Assembly (NCBI GenBank): GCA_030592015.1
Contig: JAUUZY010000001.1
Coordinates: 62,001 to 126,000, forward strand
Reading direction: 5' to 3'
From: Candidatus Peregrinibacteria bacterium
GTDB lineage: Bacteria > Patescibacteriota > Gracilibacteria > UBA1369 > LOWO2-01-FULL-3
Length of the DNA stretch: 64,000 nt
Shown here: positions 7,655 to 16,415 of the stretch, piece after piece
How the letters are laid out: every line of letters starts with the position of its first letter
Position numbering within the stretch: the first letter of the stretch is position 1
Translations under genes and position numbers: made by a program
The notes under the pieces: generated by a model
Told to the model about the DNA's origin: nothing
Databases searched by the model: none
The model's input: the letters and a program-made list of their open reading frames with translations, nothing else

Positions 7655-9883
7655 CTATATTAGTGGAGCTTCAAAAACAGGTTCAATATCACCCTGCATA
7701 GCCCCAAGATTTTCAAATTCCCCAGCTTCATCCCATTTATTGAGCATCTCTTCTACACCTACCTTTGGCATACAATATTTCGCTCTTGAAGTCTCAATAA
7801 TTTGATTTACGAAGCTATCATCTACCTTTGGTACAGTAATAGTTCTACCTGAAAAAGCCTCCCTTATCTCACCATTCACAGACATTTTACAATAAAACTC
7901 ACGCACCCCCAGGTTGATAATATCTCTTTCCTTAAACACCGGAGTATATTCCTCCGCCAAAAACTTCGCATCATCCGCCCCAACTCTAAAACTAACCATC
8001 GATCCAACATTACCAAACACTGTTTTTCTAACCTTGTCGGACAACTGTCCCATATACTGATGAGCAATAGTCAAATTCAATCTATACTTTCTCGCCTCAG
8101 ACAAAATTTCCGCAAACATATCCGTAGCAAAATTCTGAAACTCATCTACATAGAAATAAAAGTCACTTCTATCCTCCTCCTTCATATCTGCCCTACTCAT
8201 AGCAGCCTGATAAAGCTTTGTAATAATCATCGCTCCCAAAAGCGAACTGTTTTCTTCCCCCAAAAGCCCCTTAGACACTTTCATCAAAAGAATTTTCTTA
8301 TTGTCCATAACATCACGAATATCAAATTTATTCGTAGGTTGACCAATAATATTCCTAATCATATTTGTAGAAACAAACTGCCCCACCTTATTCAAAAGCG
8401 GAGTTATCGCCTCAGCATCAAATTTCTCACTCCATCCGGCAAACTCAGAAACCCAGAAATTTTTCACAACATTATCCTGAATACGAGAAACTATCGTCTG
8501 TCTATAGTTCTTATCCGTCAACATCTTCAAAATAGACAAAACAGTCGTATTGTCACTATCCAAAAGAGCCAAAACCGTATACCTAAGCACGTGCTCCAGT
8601 CTATCGGTCCAATTACTACCAAATAATTTCTTAAAAATCTGAATAAAACCAATAGTAACCTGCATTTTGTAAGCCTCATCCACATTTTCCAAAGGATTGA
8701 AAGAAATCGGGAAATTAGTATCTGAAGGATCAAAATAAATAACATCCTTGATTCGATGCTCCGGAATCATAGCCAGAACATTATCAACCAAATCTCCATG
8801 AGGATCCAAAATCCCAACACCATGACCATTATCCAAATCCTCCTTGATAAGCAATTCCAACAATTTAGATTTTCCTGAACCGGATTTTCCAACAGCATAA
8901 AGATGTCTACGCCTATCGGCTCTCCTAATCCCAAAGGTCTCAAAATTATTATGATAATTTGTAACCCCAAACAAACTCACCCCCTTCTCCCCTATCTTCG
9001 GTAGATCCTGAGGCGGCTCCGCTTTTCGCGCTAAAACATGCACAATATGAGAAACATTATCCGAATTCGGCAAATGATAAAGAGTAGCAATCTCCTTTGG
9101 ATTCAATAAAAAAGGAACAACCAATTTTCTGGCACGATACTCAGCAAGAAAGACCTTTTCTGAAAGTCTCAAAGGCTTAAATTCCTGAATATCTGTCTTA
9201 TTAAATTGATAAAAACTATTTATAATCGCTTCCAACTTTCTTCTTGCATCCTCTGGGGTCTTTGCAATATAAGCCAAACGCATATTTGCAAAAAACGGCT
9301 CAGTTTTCACCTTTTCAACAGCCAAGACATGTCGAACTTTTATCACACTATTCTCATCCTTCATTCTCATACGATCTCTCAAACTAAATATTTTTTTGAA
9401 TTTATTCCATCGAAGATTCACCCTTCTTTTCAAATGATGAACCGCACTTTCCTCACGTGGATTAATTACAATCTGAACCCAAACCTGCTCACCCGAAGCA
9501 ATTTTTGAAATAACAGAGAAAAGCCTACTCTGACTATCCTCATCAAACTCATCATAAGTCTTGATCGGATAAACATCTCCAAAACGAAATTTCATCCTAA
9601 CACCAGCAATAGCCTCCTTACTCGAGTCATATTTCGCAGAATAATCCAAAACTTCCCTTATTTCACAATCAGGATATGAAGAATACAAAAGACCTTCAAT
9701 AGTCTCAAAAAGCTTAGTTGGAACAGCGATAAAGAAGTAGGTATATTGCTCAAATCCTAGGCATTCAAGGGAAATAGAAGCGTTCTTCACAGTATTATGC
9801 AAATTCATCAAAAGCTCCTGAAAAATGCTTTCTTTTTTCTTTACATCATCTCCCTGCGGAACTATCACTTGAAAATACTTCAT
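7655..9883 (-). CDS. TraG/VirD4-like P-loop ATPase (type IV secretion/conjugation coupling-like)
   Basis: Walker A GKSGSGKSKLLELLIKEDLDNGHGVGILDPHGDLV; DFYFYVDEFQNFAT Walker B-like; SEARKYRLNLTIAHQY. Confidence 0.88.
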   Translation of the reverse strand: MKYFQVIVPQGDDVKKKESIFQELLMNLHNTVKNASISLECLGFEQYTYFFIAVPTKLFETIEGLLYSSYPDCEIREVLDYSAKYDSSKEAIAGVRMKFRFGDVYPIKTYDEFDEDSQSRLFSVISKIASGEQVWVQIVINPREESAVHHLKRRVNLRWNKFKKIFSLRDRMRMKDENSVIKVRHVLAVEKVKTEPFFANMRLAYIAKTPEDARRKLEAIINSFYQFNKTDIQEFKPLRLSEKVFLAEYRARKLVVPFLLNPKEIATLYHLPNSDNVSHIVHVLARKAEPPQDLPKIGEKGVSLFGVTNYHNNFETFGIRRADRRRHLYAVGKSGSGKSKLLELLIKEDLDNGHGVGILDPHGDLVDNVLAMIPEHRIKDVIYFDPSDTNFPISFNPLENVDEAYKMQVTIGFIQIFKKLFGSNWTDRLEHVLRYTVLALLDSDNTTVLSILKMLTDKNYRQTIVSRIQDNVVKNFWVSEFAGWSEKFDAEAITPLLNKVGQFVSTNMIRNIIGQPTNKFDIRDVMDNKKILLMKVSKGLLGEENSSLLGAMIITKLYQAAMSRADMKEEDRSDFYFYVDEFQNFATDMFAEILSEARKYRLNLTIAHQYMGQLSDKVRKTVFGNVGSMVSFRVGADDAKFLAEEYTPVFKERDIINLGVREFYCKMSVNGEIREAFSGRTITVPKVDDSFVNQIIETSRAKYCMPKVGVEEMLNKWDEAGEFENLGAMQGDIEPVFEAPLI

Positions 9884-10006: not shown

Positions 10007-11659
10007 CTAATAAACAGTTTCCAGATAACATTTATCACAATAAACAATTTCTCGTCTTTCAGGAGCGTAACTTGTAACAACCTTGGCAGCACATTTAGCA
10101 CATGATCTATCAAAACTTATTATAGGGTTTCTCATAGCCAATCTAAGAGCATTTCTAGTTTCCGGAGCATAATGAGGAATAGGAACTCCCATCTTCTTAT
10201 ATAACTCCAATTCCCGAGGAATAATTTTGTATGGACGTCCTGTTTTCTCGCACACCAAAGGCTTCCCTACAATATCGTCACTCACATCATTAATAGAATC
10301 AGGAATCACATAGTCACTCTGCATTTCACGAACTTCCTCATCAAGCCACTTCAAGCCCTGAGACAAGGCCTCTGACTTAGTCATAGGAAAATAGTCCTGA
10401 GCCACAGTTTCATTATACGCAAACAATGAATCCTTCATGGGACAAAATTCCCCCCATTCGCCGGTAGACTTCATATGTTCAACAATTCTTGCACGAAGAT
10501 CAAAATACTCATCTTTTGAATATTGTTTATTCAAAATACAATACTCCCCTCTATTCAGGCACACACAGCCAAAAAGATCATGACCATTGGAAACAAGATC
10601 ACAATAAAAAACATCATTCGACCACCAAGAACAAGCGCTGAGAGCATTGTGATAACCATCAACAGAGCCAGTCATTTCATAAAAAAGCTCAGGTTTATGC
10701 CCCACATGATCACTACTCAAAATATCCTTTGCCACCCATCCACCAAGAAAGACATCCTTCATATCTTCTGCCGGCCCCTCAATCCCAAAAGAATTACTAA
10801 CATTATTCGCATTACTAAGATAATCCCCAGTACAACCTTCACAATTCACAGTACTGGCAAACTTATGAGGGTATTTTAATTTAAATTCAGCAAACTCCTT
10901 CTTCATTTTTTCTACAGCAGTCCAGCTATCCAACCGATATCCCTTAACTTTCCTCTCATAATCCTCCTTTGAATATAGCTTATTAAAAATATGATAGCGC
11001 TTACTTCTGAGGCCAACACACCCAAAACAATCATCACAATTTCTACATTCAAAAAGAAAAGAACTGTCCTTACAGTTATGACTATTTTGACAATACTTAA
11101 GATTATAACATTTCGTACAATCAGTACTGTCATAAACAAGTTCACTTTCATTCACCCAATAAACATCAACATTATCCTTACAGTACATGCAAAAAATACT
11201 ATACATGCAGTCCTCACTATAATCCCCACCAAAAACCAAATAACAATTCTTATTTGAAAGACTCATATTGCAATACTCACTATTCTCGCCCTGAGAATTC
11301 ATCAAGGACAAACGCGGAACAACCTGCCTAAGCTCATGAAACTGCTGAAAAAAAGGCTTCGAAAAGTCATAATCACACCCATAGTCCTTTGCATCCCATT
11401 TATCACTCCACCAAGCATCCTGAGAATAAACAGTACAAGGGCCACCAGGAGAATACAAAGAAACTATCGGCTCCCCTGTCAGATCACATTTAGCATTATA
11501 TATTTTTCTTTCATTACGATGAGAAAGCCGCCTCCTATGCCTTTCTTCTATACAAAGAGTAGGCAAAGGTAGCCCAAACTTTTGAAGAAAATCTTGCTCC
11601 CACTCTGTAACTACAAATTCCTTTCCTGTAATTCTGCATGTCTGAGTAAGCTCGGGCAT
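10007..11659 (-). CDS. Cys-rich zinc-ribbon repeat protein (paralog 1)
   Basis: Terminal CxxC pairs, RNERKIYNAKCD, CFGCVGLRSKRYHIFNKLYSKEDY and CFGCVCLNRGEYCILNKQYSKDEY repeats; shared with the next two ORFs. Confidence 0.85.
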   Translation of the reverse strand: MPELTQTCRITGKEFVVTEWEQDFLQKFGLPLPTLCIEERHRRRLSHRNERKIYNAKCDLTGEPIVSLYSPGGPCTVYSQDAWWSDKWDAKDYGCDYDFSKPFFQQFHELRQVVPRLSLMNSQGENSEYCNMSLSNKNCYLVFGGDYSEDCMYSIFCMYCKDNVDVYWVNESELVYDSTDCTKCYNLKYCQNSHNCKDSSFLFECRNCDDCFGCVGLRSKRYHIFNKLYSKEDYERKVKGYRLDSWTAVEKMKKEFAEFKLKYPHKFASTVNCEGCTGDYLSNANNVSNSFGIEGPAEDMKDVFLGGWVAKDILSSDHVGHKPELFYEMTGSVDGYHNALSACSWWSNDVFYCDLVSNGHDLFGCVCLNRGEYCILNKQYSKDEYFDLRARIVEHMKSTGEWGEFCPMKDSLFAYNETVAQDYFPMTKSEALSQGLKWLDEEVREMQSDYVIPDSINDVSDDIVGKPLVCEKTGRPYKIIPRELELYKKMGVPIPHYAPETRNALRLAMRNPIISFDRSCAKCAAKVVTSYAPERREIVYCDKCYLETVY

Positions 11660-11667
11660 AAAATATA

Positions 11668-13254
11668 CTAATACAGTTCTTTAAGATAACATTTCTCACA
11701 GTACACAATCTCAGGCTGATCTGGAGAATAAGTGCTACGTATCCCTAGACCACAGTTATCACATTTCCTGTCCCAAAGTTTGCGAGAATTTCTCTGCAAA
11801 AACCTAGCTCTATGCCTACAATCAGGACATTTTTTCGGTACAGGAAAGTCTTTTGCTTTATAAAACTTCAATTCCTGAGCAATCATCTTATAATTTCTCC
11901 CACAATCTTCACATGATGGAAGTTTAGAATTTATAGCCTTTTCCTCAATATCCCGCCACTTATACCCTCGGTCCAAAGTCTCCTCCTTAGTTAAAGGGAA
12001 ATATTCACAGGAAAGAGTCTCATTGTATGCGAAAGGTGAAATACTAACAGGAAAATATTCTCCATATTCCTTACTTTCCCTCATAGACTCAATTATTTTC
12101 GCAACTAGCTTTTCATATTCCTCCTTGGAATATTGTTTATTAAAAACACAATATTGCTTACGGCGTAAACCAAAACATCCAAACAAATCCGAAGAAAAAT
12201 AACAATGCTGAGAATACTGAGTATCGTTAATTTCACGGCAATAATAAAGAAACTTAGAATTATTAGAAGCAGTAACACCATTCATTTCATAGCAACACTC
12301 AGAGCCCATTCCAACATTAGTGCAATCATAAAGATCACGTGAATTAAACCCAGCCAAATCACAATAAGCACTACCTTCCAAAGCAAGACCGTCAAAACAG
12401 TCCTTCAAATTCTTACTATTCTCCACATAATCACCAGTCACATCTTCACTCGCAATAACATGCATAAATTTCTTTGGAATTGTCAGAGACAAATCATTCA
12501 ATTTTTTCAACCATTCCCTTATAGAATCATGATTAAAACGAATGTCATTTAAACGACGTTTATACTCTTCCTCAGACAATTGTTCATTCATAAATACATA
12601 CTCAGAATTCCTCAAACCAACAGAAGAAAAACAGTTAGTACAAGCCATACAATCCTTCAAGAAATAACTGTCATTACAATTCAAACAATCCTGAGAAAAA
12701 GCAAGATTGTAGCACTTCATACAATCCACACATTCGTAACAAAGCTCACAGGAAAGAACCTTAGTACAATCAACACAAGATTTAGACTTTATAGCTCCAT
12801 AACTGTAATAAACATCCTCACAGTAAGCACAAAGAGCAAGATAACAATTTTTATTCTCAACCCCAAAATTCACATATTCACAGTTTTCAGAACTCCCATC
12901 CTGAAATAGTGCAATATGAGGAATAGCCTTATCCAATTCGCTAAATTGTTCAAAAAAAGATTTGGAAAAATTATATTCCCTTGCATAGTCCATAACATCC
13001 CATTTATCACTCCACCAACAATCATAACAGTAAACTATGAACTCAGAATCCTTAGGGAACACAGAAATCACCGCCACTTCACACAAATCACAATGCCTAT
13101 TGTATAAATGCCTCTCATTCCTCAACGCAGAACGCCGCTGCCTCCTACAATCAGGACAAAAAGTCGGCTTCGGCAAAGAATTCCTATCATAAAAATCCTG
13201 ATCCCTCTGATCAATTTCAAATTGAACACTACATTGCGTACAACTTCGATTCAT
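11668..13254 (-). CDS. Cys-rich zinc-ribbon repeat protein (paralog 2)
   Basis: MNRSCTQCSVQFEI...CPDCRRQRRSALRNERHLYNRHCD; CFGCFGLRRKQYCVFNKQYSKEEY; C-terminal CPDCR...CDNCGLGIRSTY...CEKCYLKELY. Confidence 0.85.
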   Translation of the reverse strand: MNRSCTQCSVQFEIDQRDQDFYDRNSLPKPTFCPDCRRQRRSALRNERHLYNRHCDLCEVAVISVFPKDSEFIVYCYDCWWSDKWDVMDYAREYNFSKSFFEQFSELDKAIPHIALFQDGSSENCEYVNFGVENKNCYLALCAYCEDVYYSYGAIKSKSCVDCTKVLSCELCYECVDCMKCYNLAFSQDCLNCNDSYFLKDCMACTNCFSSVGLRNSEYVFMNEQLSEEEYKRRLNDIRFNHDSIREWLKKLNDLSLTIPKKFMHVIASEDVTGDYVENSKNLKDCFDGLALEGSAYCDLAGFNSRDLYDCTNVGMGSECCYEMNGVTASNNSKFLYYCREINDTQYSQHCYFSSDLFGCFGLRRKQYCVFNKQYSKEEYEKLVAKIIESMRESKEYGEYFPVSISPFAYNETLSCEYFPLTKEETLDRGYKWRDIEEKAINSKLPSCEDCGRNYKMIAQELKFYKAKDFPVPKKCPDCRHRARFLQRNSRKLWDRKCDNCGLGIRSTYSPDQPEIVYCEKCYLKELY

Positions 13255-13263
13255 ATTGCTATT

Positions 13264-14919
13264 TTAATACATTTCCTGCAAATAACATTTTTCACAATAC
13301 ACAGTCTCAGGACAATCAGCCACATAAGTACTACGTATACCTACATCACATTTATCACATTTCCTGCTCCACAACTTTCTTGAATTTCTCTGAGAAACCC
13401 TAGCCGCATTACGACAATCCGGGCATTTCTTCGGCACAGACAAACCCTTTCTACGATAAATATTCAACTCCTGACTAATCACCTTATAGTTTTTCCCACA
13501 ATCTACACATGCAAGAACTTCATTCACAATACTATCCGGCACATCCTTTATTCTATTAGGAAAATCACAGCTCGCAGGCCTATACTCCCTTTTATCAGTA
13601 TCCCGCCAAGCATAACCATCCTCCAAAGCTTTCTCTTTACTCAAAGGAAAAAACTCCTGAGCCATAGTTTCGTTATATGGAAAAGGTGATATTGCAATTG
13701 GAAAAAATTCACCCCACTCCCCCATTTTCTTCATATGCTCAACAATACGAGGCATAAGCTCCTCGTATTCCTCCTTTGTATATTGTTTGTTCAAAATACA
13801 ATATTTCTTATGCAGCAAACCAACACACCCAAAACAATGAGCACAATGACGACAATTATCAGAATAAAAATCATTACTACCATCCCAACACTGACTACAA
13901 AAAGCAGTAGCAGTCTGTCTTATTGGAGAATAGACCTCATAGGTCATCTCAGACCAACCGGTATGATATCCATCCAAACAATTCTTTACCTCAGAGTCCT
14001 GAACATACATACAATCCTCTGAACGATAAACCTGATAACAATCATGACAATTCTTAGACTCAAAGATGTAATCCCCACTGCAATTTTCAGTCTTATCCTG
14101 TATCGAATAAAGATGAGGCACCTGTAACTTCAAACCCTCAAGCCTCTCTTGAACTTGCCGCACTTGCTCCTCGTCCTGCAAATCAAATTCCTTAATCCGC
14201 TTCTCGTATTCCTCCTTAGTAAATTGCTCGTTAAACAGGCAATAAGACTTATCCCTAAGCCCAACACATGCAAAACAATCTCTGCATCTCCTACAATCAT
14301 ACAAGTAGTAAGAATCCGAACAGTTATGAGATAAAACACAGTAAAAACAGTTATATGAATGATTAGAATCAAGACATCCCACACAATTCTCCGTTTGAAA
14401 GCAATAACTACAATCAATACAACTCTTGCACTCCAAAAGCCAATAGCAATACAAGAGAGCCTCCCCCCTATAAACACACTGACTCAAATAACAATCCTTA
14501 GCATCAAAAGCAAAATTGCAATAATCACTATTCTCCGTATTTTGACCATTTAAGGCAGGGCGTGGAACAGTTGACAACAATTGCTCAAATTGTTCAAAAA
14601 AGGGCCTACTGAAGTCAAAGTCAATTCCATAGTTCAATGCATCCCAATCATCCTTCCACCACTCAGATCTCTCATACACAGGGAATTTCACGCCTTCCGG
14701 ATATCCAGAAATAATCTGCTTTCCGGTTTTACTGCAATTCCGATTATACAAAAACCTCTCATTTCTAAAACTCATCCTCCTTTGCATTCTACAATCTGGA
14801 CAGTGAGTTGGAGCTGGCACAACTCCAGTTTCAAAATGTGAAGAAATTCTATTTCTGAGTTCAGATTCTTCAGAAACAATTTGAAAATTTATCCCACAAT
14901 TTTTACAAGTTTTTTCCAC
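13264..14919 (-). CDS. Cys-rich zinc-ribbon repeat protein (paralog 3)
   Basis: CKNCGINFQI...CPDCRMQRRMSFRNERFLYNRNCS; dense CxxC; two CFxCVGL..K.YC..N.Q.TKEEYE units; same C-terminus as paralog 2. Confidence 0.85.
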   Translation of the reverse strand: MEKTCKNCGINFQIVSEESELRNRISSHFETGVVPAPTHCPDCRMQRRMSFRNERFLYNRNCSKTGKQIISGYPEGVKFPVYERSEWWKDDWDALNYGIDFDFSRPFFEQFEQLLSTVPRPALNGQNTENSDYCNFAFDAKDCYLSQCVYRGEALLYCYWLLECKSCIDCSYCFQTENCVGCLDSNHSYNCFYCVLSHNCSDSYYLYDCRRCRDCFACVGLRDKSYCLFNEQFTKEEYEKRIKEFDLQDEEQVRQVQERLEGLKLQVPHLYSIQDKTENCSGDYIFESKNCHDCYQVYRSEDCMYVQDSEVKNCLDGYHTGWSEMTYEVYSPIRQTATAFCSQCWDGSNDFYSDNCRHCAHCFGCVGLLHKKYCILNKQYTKEEYEELMPRIVEHMKKMGEWGEFFPIAISPFPYNETMAQEFFPLSKEKALEDGYAWRDTDKREYRPASCDFPNRIKDVPDSIVNEVLACVDCGKNYKVISQELNIYRRKGLSVPKKCPDCRNAARVSQRNSRKLWSRKCDKCDVGIRSTYVADCPETVYCEKCYLQEMY

Positions 14920-15156: not shown

Positions 15157-15987
15157 ATGAAAATTGTTATTCTAATTCCAAAACTTCACGCTGGATCAGA
15201 GCTGGCGCTGAACAAATTGCTACAAAAAAAAGACTTAAATATAGTTGGAATTGTTCGCTCAGATATTTCCCCATTAACAAAAAAATACTGGCGATATTTT
15301 AGATATGGTCTACGTCGAGCAGGAGCATTTTATGCAATCATAATAGCACTGGTAGCATATCTACATTTTATAGGCTTAGGACTGGCAAGCCTCTTTATAT
15401 GGAATAGAAAACGACGCTGGTTGCACATCACAAAGCTTATAAAGAAACACAAGCTGGCAATTCACGACACAAGCAACATAAACTCCAAAGAGAGCATAGC
15501 TATAATCAAATCATGGGAGCCGGATGTGCTTGTTTCAATCAATTTTGACCAAATACTAAAAAAACGAGTAATCAAAATTCCAAAAATCACAACTTTGAAC
15601 ATGCACCCGGGACTATTGCCCAAGTACAAAGGCGTTTGGCCTAGCTTCTGGAAGCTACACAACGGAGAAAAATACGCCGGAGTAACAATTCACCACCTAA
15701 ACGAAAAAATCGACGAAGGAGCCATAATTGCCCAGAGAAAATTTAGAATCCATAAAAACGAAACAAGTTTTCACCTTGCACTTAGATCTGCTCAACACGG
15801 AAGCCAATTATTGATCAAAACACTACAAAAAATGAAAAAAGGTATCAAACTACCAACTATAAAGATAAAAGCAAAACCTTCATACTATTCCCTACCATCA
15901 AAAGTAGAATTTGACGCATTCCACGCAAAGGGAAAAAGGATCTTCTCCGGACTAGGGCTATGGAAAGAATTCAAAAGACGATTCTAA
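15157..15987 (+). CDS. Formyltransferase-domain protein (methionyl-tRNA/phosphoribosylglycinamide formyltransferase-like)
   Basis: NMHPGLLPKYKGVWPSFWKLHNGEKYAGVTIHHLNEKIDEGAIIAQ matches the formyl transferase core. Confidence 0.88.
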   Translation: MKIVILIPKLHAGSELALNKLLQKKDLNIVGIVRSDISPLTKKYWRYFRYGLRRAGAFYAIIIALVAYLHFIGLGLASLFIWNRKRRWLHITKLIKKHKLAIHDTSNINSKESIAIIKSWEPDVLVSINFDQILKKRVIKIPKITTLNMHPGLLPKYKGVWPSFWKLHNGEKYAGVTIHHLNEKIDEGAIIAQRKFRIHKNETSFHLALRSAQHGSQLLIKTLQKMKKGIKLPTIKIKAKPSYYSLPSKVEFDAFHAKGKRIFSGLGLWKEFKRRF

Positions 15988-16415
15988 ACTGCTTTTCGAA
16001 GCTTTAGATGCTCAAATATAAAAACACCAAGCATCACCAAAGTGATACCAAATGATCCCCAACACCAAATACAAATGTCACCTATTTTGGCAAATTCCAA
16101 ATAGCGTAGATAAACTCCAAACAACACTCCCCAAACTATCAAAATACCAAGAAACAAATCTAAAAGTTTGTGCTTTATAAGACTTCTTTCAAAAGCAAGA
16201 AACCACACACCCACATAAAAGAAAAACCCATAAACAGCCATAGGAACACCAAGTATTTTCCCATATTCACTATTCAAAACAGTCTCGCACCCATCATCGG
16301 TACAAGGAACAATAGTGTCAGATACCTGAATCCACCAGAGATAAGCGCAAAGCAACATCCCAACAATGCTCAAAAGCAATATAATCCTATTTGTCCACAA
16401 CTTTAAATCTTTCAT
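15984..16415 (-). CDS. Vitamin K epoxide reductase (VKOR) family membrane protein
   Basis: Four to five TM helices, loop cysteines PCTDDGCETVLNSEYGKILGVPMAVYG and redox motif CIWC. Confidence 0.9.
   Translation of the reverse strand: MKDLKLWTNRIILLLSIVGMLLCAYLWWIQVSDTIVPCTDDGCETVLNSEYGKILGVPMAVYGFFFYVGVWFLAFERSLIKHKLLDLFLGILIVWGVLFGVYLRYLEFAKIGDICIWCWGSFGITLVMLGVFIFEHLKLRKAV

Follow-up and report, generated by a model that had tools for sequence, protein, structure and literature searches.

A patchy family of cysteine-rich proteins in Patescibacteria and its likely partnership with a soluble VirD4-like ATPase

Described systems closest to the locus

Patescibacteria are tiny symbionts with genomes of about 1 Mb. 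Quinonero-Coronel et al. (2025) counted 5,713 VirD4-like proteins in 2,918 patescibacterial genomes, of which 148 lie near virB4, and the accessible text of that study leaves possible that such proteins have been exapted (PMC12102498). The ATPase described here is of the same kind and is also encoded away from virB4. However, that text names no partner for these proteins and leaves their role open (PMC12102498), whereas the present analysis links one subset of them, encoded away from virB4, to a very likely and specific partner, a family of cysteine-rich proteins that we call F. The ATPase resembles the coupling proteins VirD4, TrwB and TraD in its motor fold, in its Pfam T4SS-DNA_transf match and in a C-terminal tail that is flexible and, as in TraD, hydrophobic at its tip (PMC7555446). 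Unlike them, it lacks a membrane anchor at the N terminus, its N-terminal part is VirB4-like, its tip has another sequence, its gene has no relaxase or virB gene as a neighbor, and the family linked to it is F instead of TraM.

The F proteins also have partial counterparts. Their terminal modules are like the small zf_Tbcl (PF13451) and CxxC-x17-CxxC (TIGR04272, PF23477) proteins, and stand-alone stretches similar to them occur in plasmid records of Firmicutes, but F has one such module on either side of a pair of solenoids. Among related Patescibacteria, Ca. Peribacter riflensis has a gene cluster for multi-copy, Cys-rich proteins; these average 1,655 aa, mostly carry signal peptides and in many cases are predicted to be extracellular (PMC4736985), whereas F proteins are about 550 aa long and have no signal peptide. 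A feature-based literature search found no published description of F; most subscription journals were outside its scope, so this is not proof of novelty.

The window analysed is a stretch of 64,000 nucleotides from a Candidatus Peregrinibacteria genome (1.2 Mb in 75 contigs). As the preliminary description stated, it contains three adjacent, co-directional ORFs of 528 to 551 aa (10007-14919). They are on the minus strand, with gaps of 8-9 bp. The first gene, P0003 (13264-14919), has a GTG start and codes for 551 aa; it is followed by P0002 (11668-13254, 528 aa) and P0001 (10007-11659, 550 aa). Cys makes up 6-8% of these proteins (45, 42 and 31 residues, respectively), and the count of about 45 previously made by eye for the 551-aa protein was exact. 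P0002 matches its two neighbors with E values of 8e-132 and 4e-114 (43% and 40% identity), a similarity far beyond chance that identifies the three as paralogs; P0003 matches the F profile with 744.7 bits. Elsewhere, the same genome contains an F copy on contig 72 that is broken in two, two F pieces located at the ends of contigs, and a stand-alone 83-aa CxxC-x17-CxxC protein (L178:4169-4420) that resembles the C-terminal ribbon of F. A VKOR-type disulfide-formation gene lies at 15984-16415, some 1.1 kb from where the triad begins.

Predicted architecture of the F proteins

An AlphaFold model of P0002, built on an alignment of 93 sequences (pLDDT 89, pTM 0.90), predicts that F proteins have a zinc-ribbon module at either end and two beta-solenoids in between. 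All parts are encoded on the minus strand. The N-terminal double ribbon with its linker covers residues 1-110 (12925-13254, pLDDT 92-98) and is followed by a first, Cys-rich solenoid of 12-residue coils in which every third residue points inward (residues 113-225, 12580-12918). Helices at residues 228-256 lead to the second solenoid (residues 262-376, 12127-12471), in which pLDDT is mostly above 95 and the core period is about 3.1, and further helices precede the C-terminal double ribbon (residues 446-528, 11671-11919). Confidence falls to 55-73 in the Cys-densest stretch, in the middle of the first solenoid (residues 141-220 approximately). P0003 has the same order of ribbon, solenoid, solenoid and ribbon.

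The terminal zinc ribbons proposed from the sequence find good backing in the alignment, where the putative ligands C5/C8/C33/C36 (92-99%) and C498/C501/C519/C522 are conserved at 92-100%, and in the match of P0002 to the Pfam zf_Tbcl model (27.4 bits for a cut-off of 24). They are not equally preserved in the triad, as had been claimed for both the CxxC ribbons and the RNSRKLW signature. Among the three proteins, all eight CxxC knuckles are present only in P0002; P0003 lacks three Cys of its second N-terminal ribbon and stays below the zf_Tbcl cut-off (20.3 bits), while P0001 has no zf_Tbcl match, an eroded N-terminal ribbon (CxxT and CxxE), a partly eroded C-terminal one, and RNPIISF in place of RNSRKLW. 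The described pair of FGCxGLxxKxYCxxNKQYxKEEYE-like units does occur in all three. Zinc ribbons are in themselves no proof of nucleic-acid binding or of an adaptor function.

For the solenoids, the regular Cys spacing noticed at first sight was borne out, since Cys of the first solenoid fall on one phase of a three-residue period (28% versus 0% and 5% on the other two). Profile periodicity analysis gave a period of 3.0 with a best repeat lag of 12 in the first solenoid and a period of about 3.1 with shifted phase in the second, so that the sequences agree with the model in pointing to a narrow coil of about 12 residues with an inward residue at every third position. Pentapeptide-repeat proteins, which have a period of five residues, do not agree with this periodicity. 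A fold search with the whole model returned only weak, poorly superposing matches, mostly left-handed beta-helices with TM-scores around 0.1, and these were set aside.

Stabilization of the coil by a fixed ladder of metal ions or disulfides, as the preliminary description suggested, is not supported. Across the family, inward positions are occupied by Cys (33%), Ser (15%), Leu (12%) and Asn (8.5%), all other positions contain only 2.4% Cys, and conservation is only 30-70% for most of the solenoid Cys; their replacement by Ser, Leu or Asn looks like core packing instead of fixed metal or disulfide sites. The same substitutions make it extremely improbable that F is a metallothionein-like metal store or thiol buffer, an idea that the high Cys content of the window proteins would favor but in which solenoid Cys should form conserved ligand sets and which leaves the link to the ATPase unexplained. 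DNA mimicry by the solenoids is likewise unsupported, their median net charge being only about -4 each.

The beta-helix of TmAFP-type antifreeze proteins also has a 12-residue coil, every third residue inward and a Cys-rich core. However, the Cys of F are not conserved pairs, F is probably intracellular and bears zinc ribbons, and no sequence relation between the two was found. The period-3 NCxxCxxC steps of the first F solenoid recur in phrog_15341 and in proteins of Campylobacter phages (CP220 gp032, vB_CjeM_WX1 0155), which are short and have neither ribbons nor helix caps; this weak similarity may be convergent. Two such short Campylobacter phage proteins (L179:2935-3306 and L180:2339-2899) consist mostly of NCxxCxxC steps, and phrog_15341 matches the region of the first F solenoid.

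None of the 93 F proteins has a 19-residue stretch with hydropathy above 1.6, and none has a signal peptide, which argues for a location in the reducing cytosol. A split version is found at L117, where separate genes for a solenoid protein of 328 aa and a ribbon protein of 88 aa (35.6 bits against zf_Tbcl), the counterpart of the N-terminal module of P0002, are followed by the ATPase gene, with a divergent TrmB-like gene upstream; solenoid and ribbon are also encoded by separate genes in G012.

Distribution of F and its co-inheritance with one ATPase

Sequence searches describe F as a patchy, multi-copy family of Patescibacteria. A scan of the genome collection gave 79 F loci, almost all of them assigned to Patescibacteria or to a bacterium with no label. 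The one labelled Nitrospirota (L036) bears the same ATPase and regulator and is possibly a misbinned patescibacterial contig. F is present in 46 of 60 relatives, with up to 25 matches each (split genes and fragments included), and missing from genomes of the same family that are nearly complete. Across the phylum, near-full-length F was found in 31 of 381 genomes. Some Patescibacteria devote a large share of their small genomes to it, G416 having 18 copies that take up about 31 kb, near 4% of 0.8 Mb. Adjacent F genes are always co-directional (114 of 114 pairs, some of them from overlapping loci), with a median gap of 10 bp. Full-length relatives were not found in phage or plasmid records, and the viral contigs of IMG/VR gave a single match of 147 bp at a contig edge, for which reason a viral or plasmid origin was rejected.

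Clustering of the neighbors of F yielded two recurrent families, the VirD4-like ATPase (26 loci) and a TrmB-like regulator, assigned by Pfam (20 loci). The adjacency to a TraG/VirD4-like ATPase, a passing remark in the preliminary description, turned out to be its most informative part. In the window, this gene (7655-9883, minus strand, 742 aa, Pfam PF02534) lies 124 bp downstream of the triad in the same direction. Each genome encodes several VirD4-like paralogs, of which just one kind tracks F. An initial comparison found a short ATPase of 741-786 aa in 22 of 22 F-positive and 0 of 12 F-negative genomes. Defined as a match of at least 874 bits to profile A4, the short type occurs in 27 of the 381 genomes, all of them F-positive, and each of the 31 genomes with near-full-length F has an F-type ATPase, which belongs to the short clade in 27 and to a split type in four (G209, G391, G399 and G416; 951-982 bits). 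The search for the split type covered the order of G416 plus five other genomes. Only 2 of the 79 genomes in that order contain F, and the same two alone have the split-type ATPase, adjoining F, with 979 and 934 bits compared with 456 for the best F-negative genome. Since the genomes are related, these counts are not independent events, and drafts may give false absences. Sister genomes repeat the contrast: G012 and G027 have both F and the ATPase and G022 neither, and the same holds for G316 against G361, G419 against G249, G047 and G058 against G032, and G059 against G036 and G049.

Most ATPase genes adjoin F (21 of the 32 short-type genes with examined surroundings lie within 1.5 kb of it, at 14 of these the gene just upstream is F and has the same orientation, and several of the others are near contig ends), so both could be carried together merely by physical linkage on one mobile or unstable segment. 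We consider this very unlikely, because the co-occurrence holds in genomes in which the two are on separate contigs or over 100 kb from each other (G053, G052), the ATPase tree follows taxonomy, with the 24 short-type sequences in one clade (support 100/100), and full-length F is missing from the mobile-element records mentioned above. A functional partnership between F and the short- or split-type ATPase is, by contrast, very likely; that F is kept or lost together with one motor protein suggests one joint cellular machine. In G370, G238 and G305, which have only fragmentary or interrupted F, no ATPase with the conserved tail tip described below was found. At L155 (G370:C22), an F gene interrupted by a stop codon stands next to a 779-aa ATPase without the PLI tip, a possible case of joint decay.

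The second recurrent neighbor, the TrmB-like regulator, was counted in ten near-complete genomes. Of its 57 genes, 19 are no more than 1.5 kb away from F where 1.8 would be expected (Poisson P about 9e-14), and 15 of the 19 are divergent to it; for all ATPase paralogs pooled, 7 of 39 are near F against 1.3 expected. The F array of the window itself has no TrmB-like gene beside it. Around the short-type ATPases we found no third conserved partner besides F and the TrmB-like genes.

The ATPase, its tail and the proposed machine

The window ATPase matches PF02534, PF10412 and PF12696 above cut-off, as well as PF01935, and its structural model joins an N-terminal part like that of VirB4 to a motor like that of TrwB (TM-score to TrwB 0.64 by target length). 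The transmembrane anchor of VirD4 proteins is absent from its N terminus by hydropathy, the maximum over 19 residues being 1.16, compared with 1.7-3.1 in the long paralogs, where the peak is N-terminal in 16 of 17. In the regions examined, no relaxase or virB genes recur beside it; genuine coupling proteins encoded apart from such genes are known exceptions.

An alternative is that F proteins are cargo, which the type IV secretion system of Patescibacteria would export to a host cell or to the cell surface, the tailed ATPase being their dedicated coupling protein. A single ATPase for many F copies, proteins free of signal peptides and membrane segments, and the patchy presence and widely varying copy number typical of host-interaction genes would all suit such a role. 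A VirB4-type gene (PF19044) was indeed found in 16 of 17 F-positive genomes tested, but it is equally present in F-negative ones (7 of 8), so that a secretion channel is available without being specific to F. The window ATPase, besides having no anchor, does not match PF19044 (P-loop_TraG), the matches of its genome to this model being on contig 67. Considering also that zinc-stabilized rods would need unfolding and that L117 and G012 encode solenoid and ribbon separately, we regard export as unlikely, although it is the foremost of the alternatives.

The ATPase model also matches HerA from the Nezha, Sir2-HerA and DUF4297-HerA defense complexes, and the protein matches PADLOC mad8 (E = 3e-12). 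Together with the patchy, multi-copy occurrence of F, this would fit a HerA-type nucleic-acid processing or antiphage system in which F is a DNA- or RNA-binding effector or sensor. However, TrwB and VirB4 fit the model better than HerA does, and F has no recognized enzymatic domain and no PADLOC match, which led us to reject a known defense family for it. No HerA partner (nuclease, Sir2 or DUF4297) was found, and no other defense gene recurs near F or the ATPase in the regions examined. We rate this reading as quite unlikely, below export as cargo.

Our preferred reading gives a central role to the C-terminal tail of the ATPase (residues 721-742, 7658-7723, minus strand). The tail is disordered in the model (pLDDT about 30) and ends in FEAPLI, and yet its last residues are conserved. 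P-[LIM]-[ILV]-COOH stands at the very end of 23 of 24 short-type and 0 of 17 long-type ATPases. Split-type ATPases end in EPMI, EPMI, SPLI, EPLI and EPLI, and further ATPases beside F in L038, L054, L059, L045 and L070 end in EPLI or EPMI, although one short-type ATPase adjoining F (L128) has a different tip. In the F plasmid, TraD has a flexible acidic tail whose terminal residue and carboxylate make the contact with TraM (PMC7555446), and by this precedent we propose that F docks on the ATPase tail. On this analogy we hold direct docking to be about as likely as not; the binding partner of the tail might also be another molecule than F. The motif is a specific peptide open to deletion or competition in a simple binding test.

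In the machine that we propose, each F protein would be a cytosolic rod of two narrow beta-solenoids between two zinc-ribbon modules, and one soluble VirD4-like ATPase would have the F proteins as its own exchangeable partners. Its flexible tail would recruit them in the manner of TraD and TraM, the various F copies would each bring another target to the motor, and TrmB-type regulators would set which F arrays are expressed. Swappable cytosolic partner subunits of a tailed soluble ATPase are, taken as a whole model, plausible but a little less assured than docking itself, and the adaptor role of F is more tentative still. That one tailed ATPase and up to about two dozen paralogous F adaptors might form a set of switchable recognition rods, regulated array by array and unlike the described machines, is doubtful; if true, a tiny symbiont would gain a switchable repertoire of recognition rods on one motor.

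A set of long, F-independent VirD4-like ATPases (L159-L162 and L174-L175, in G461, G451, G440, G465, G209 and G399) has another conserved motif near the C terminus, [VI]PE[DE]VLR[KRT][ILV]L, and the VirD4-like paralogs may each have a docking peptide of their own.
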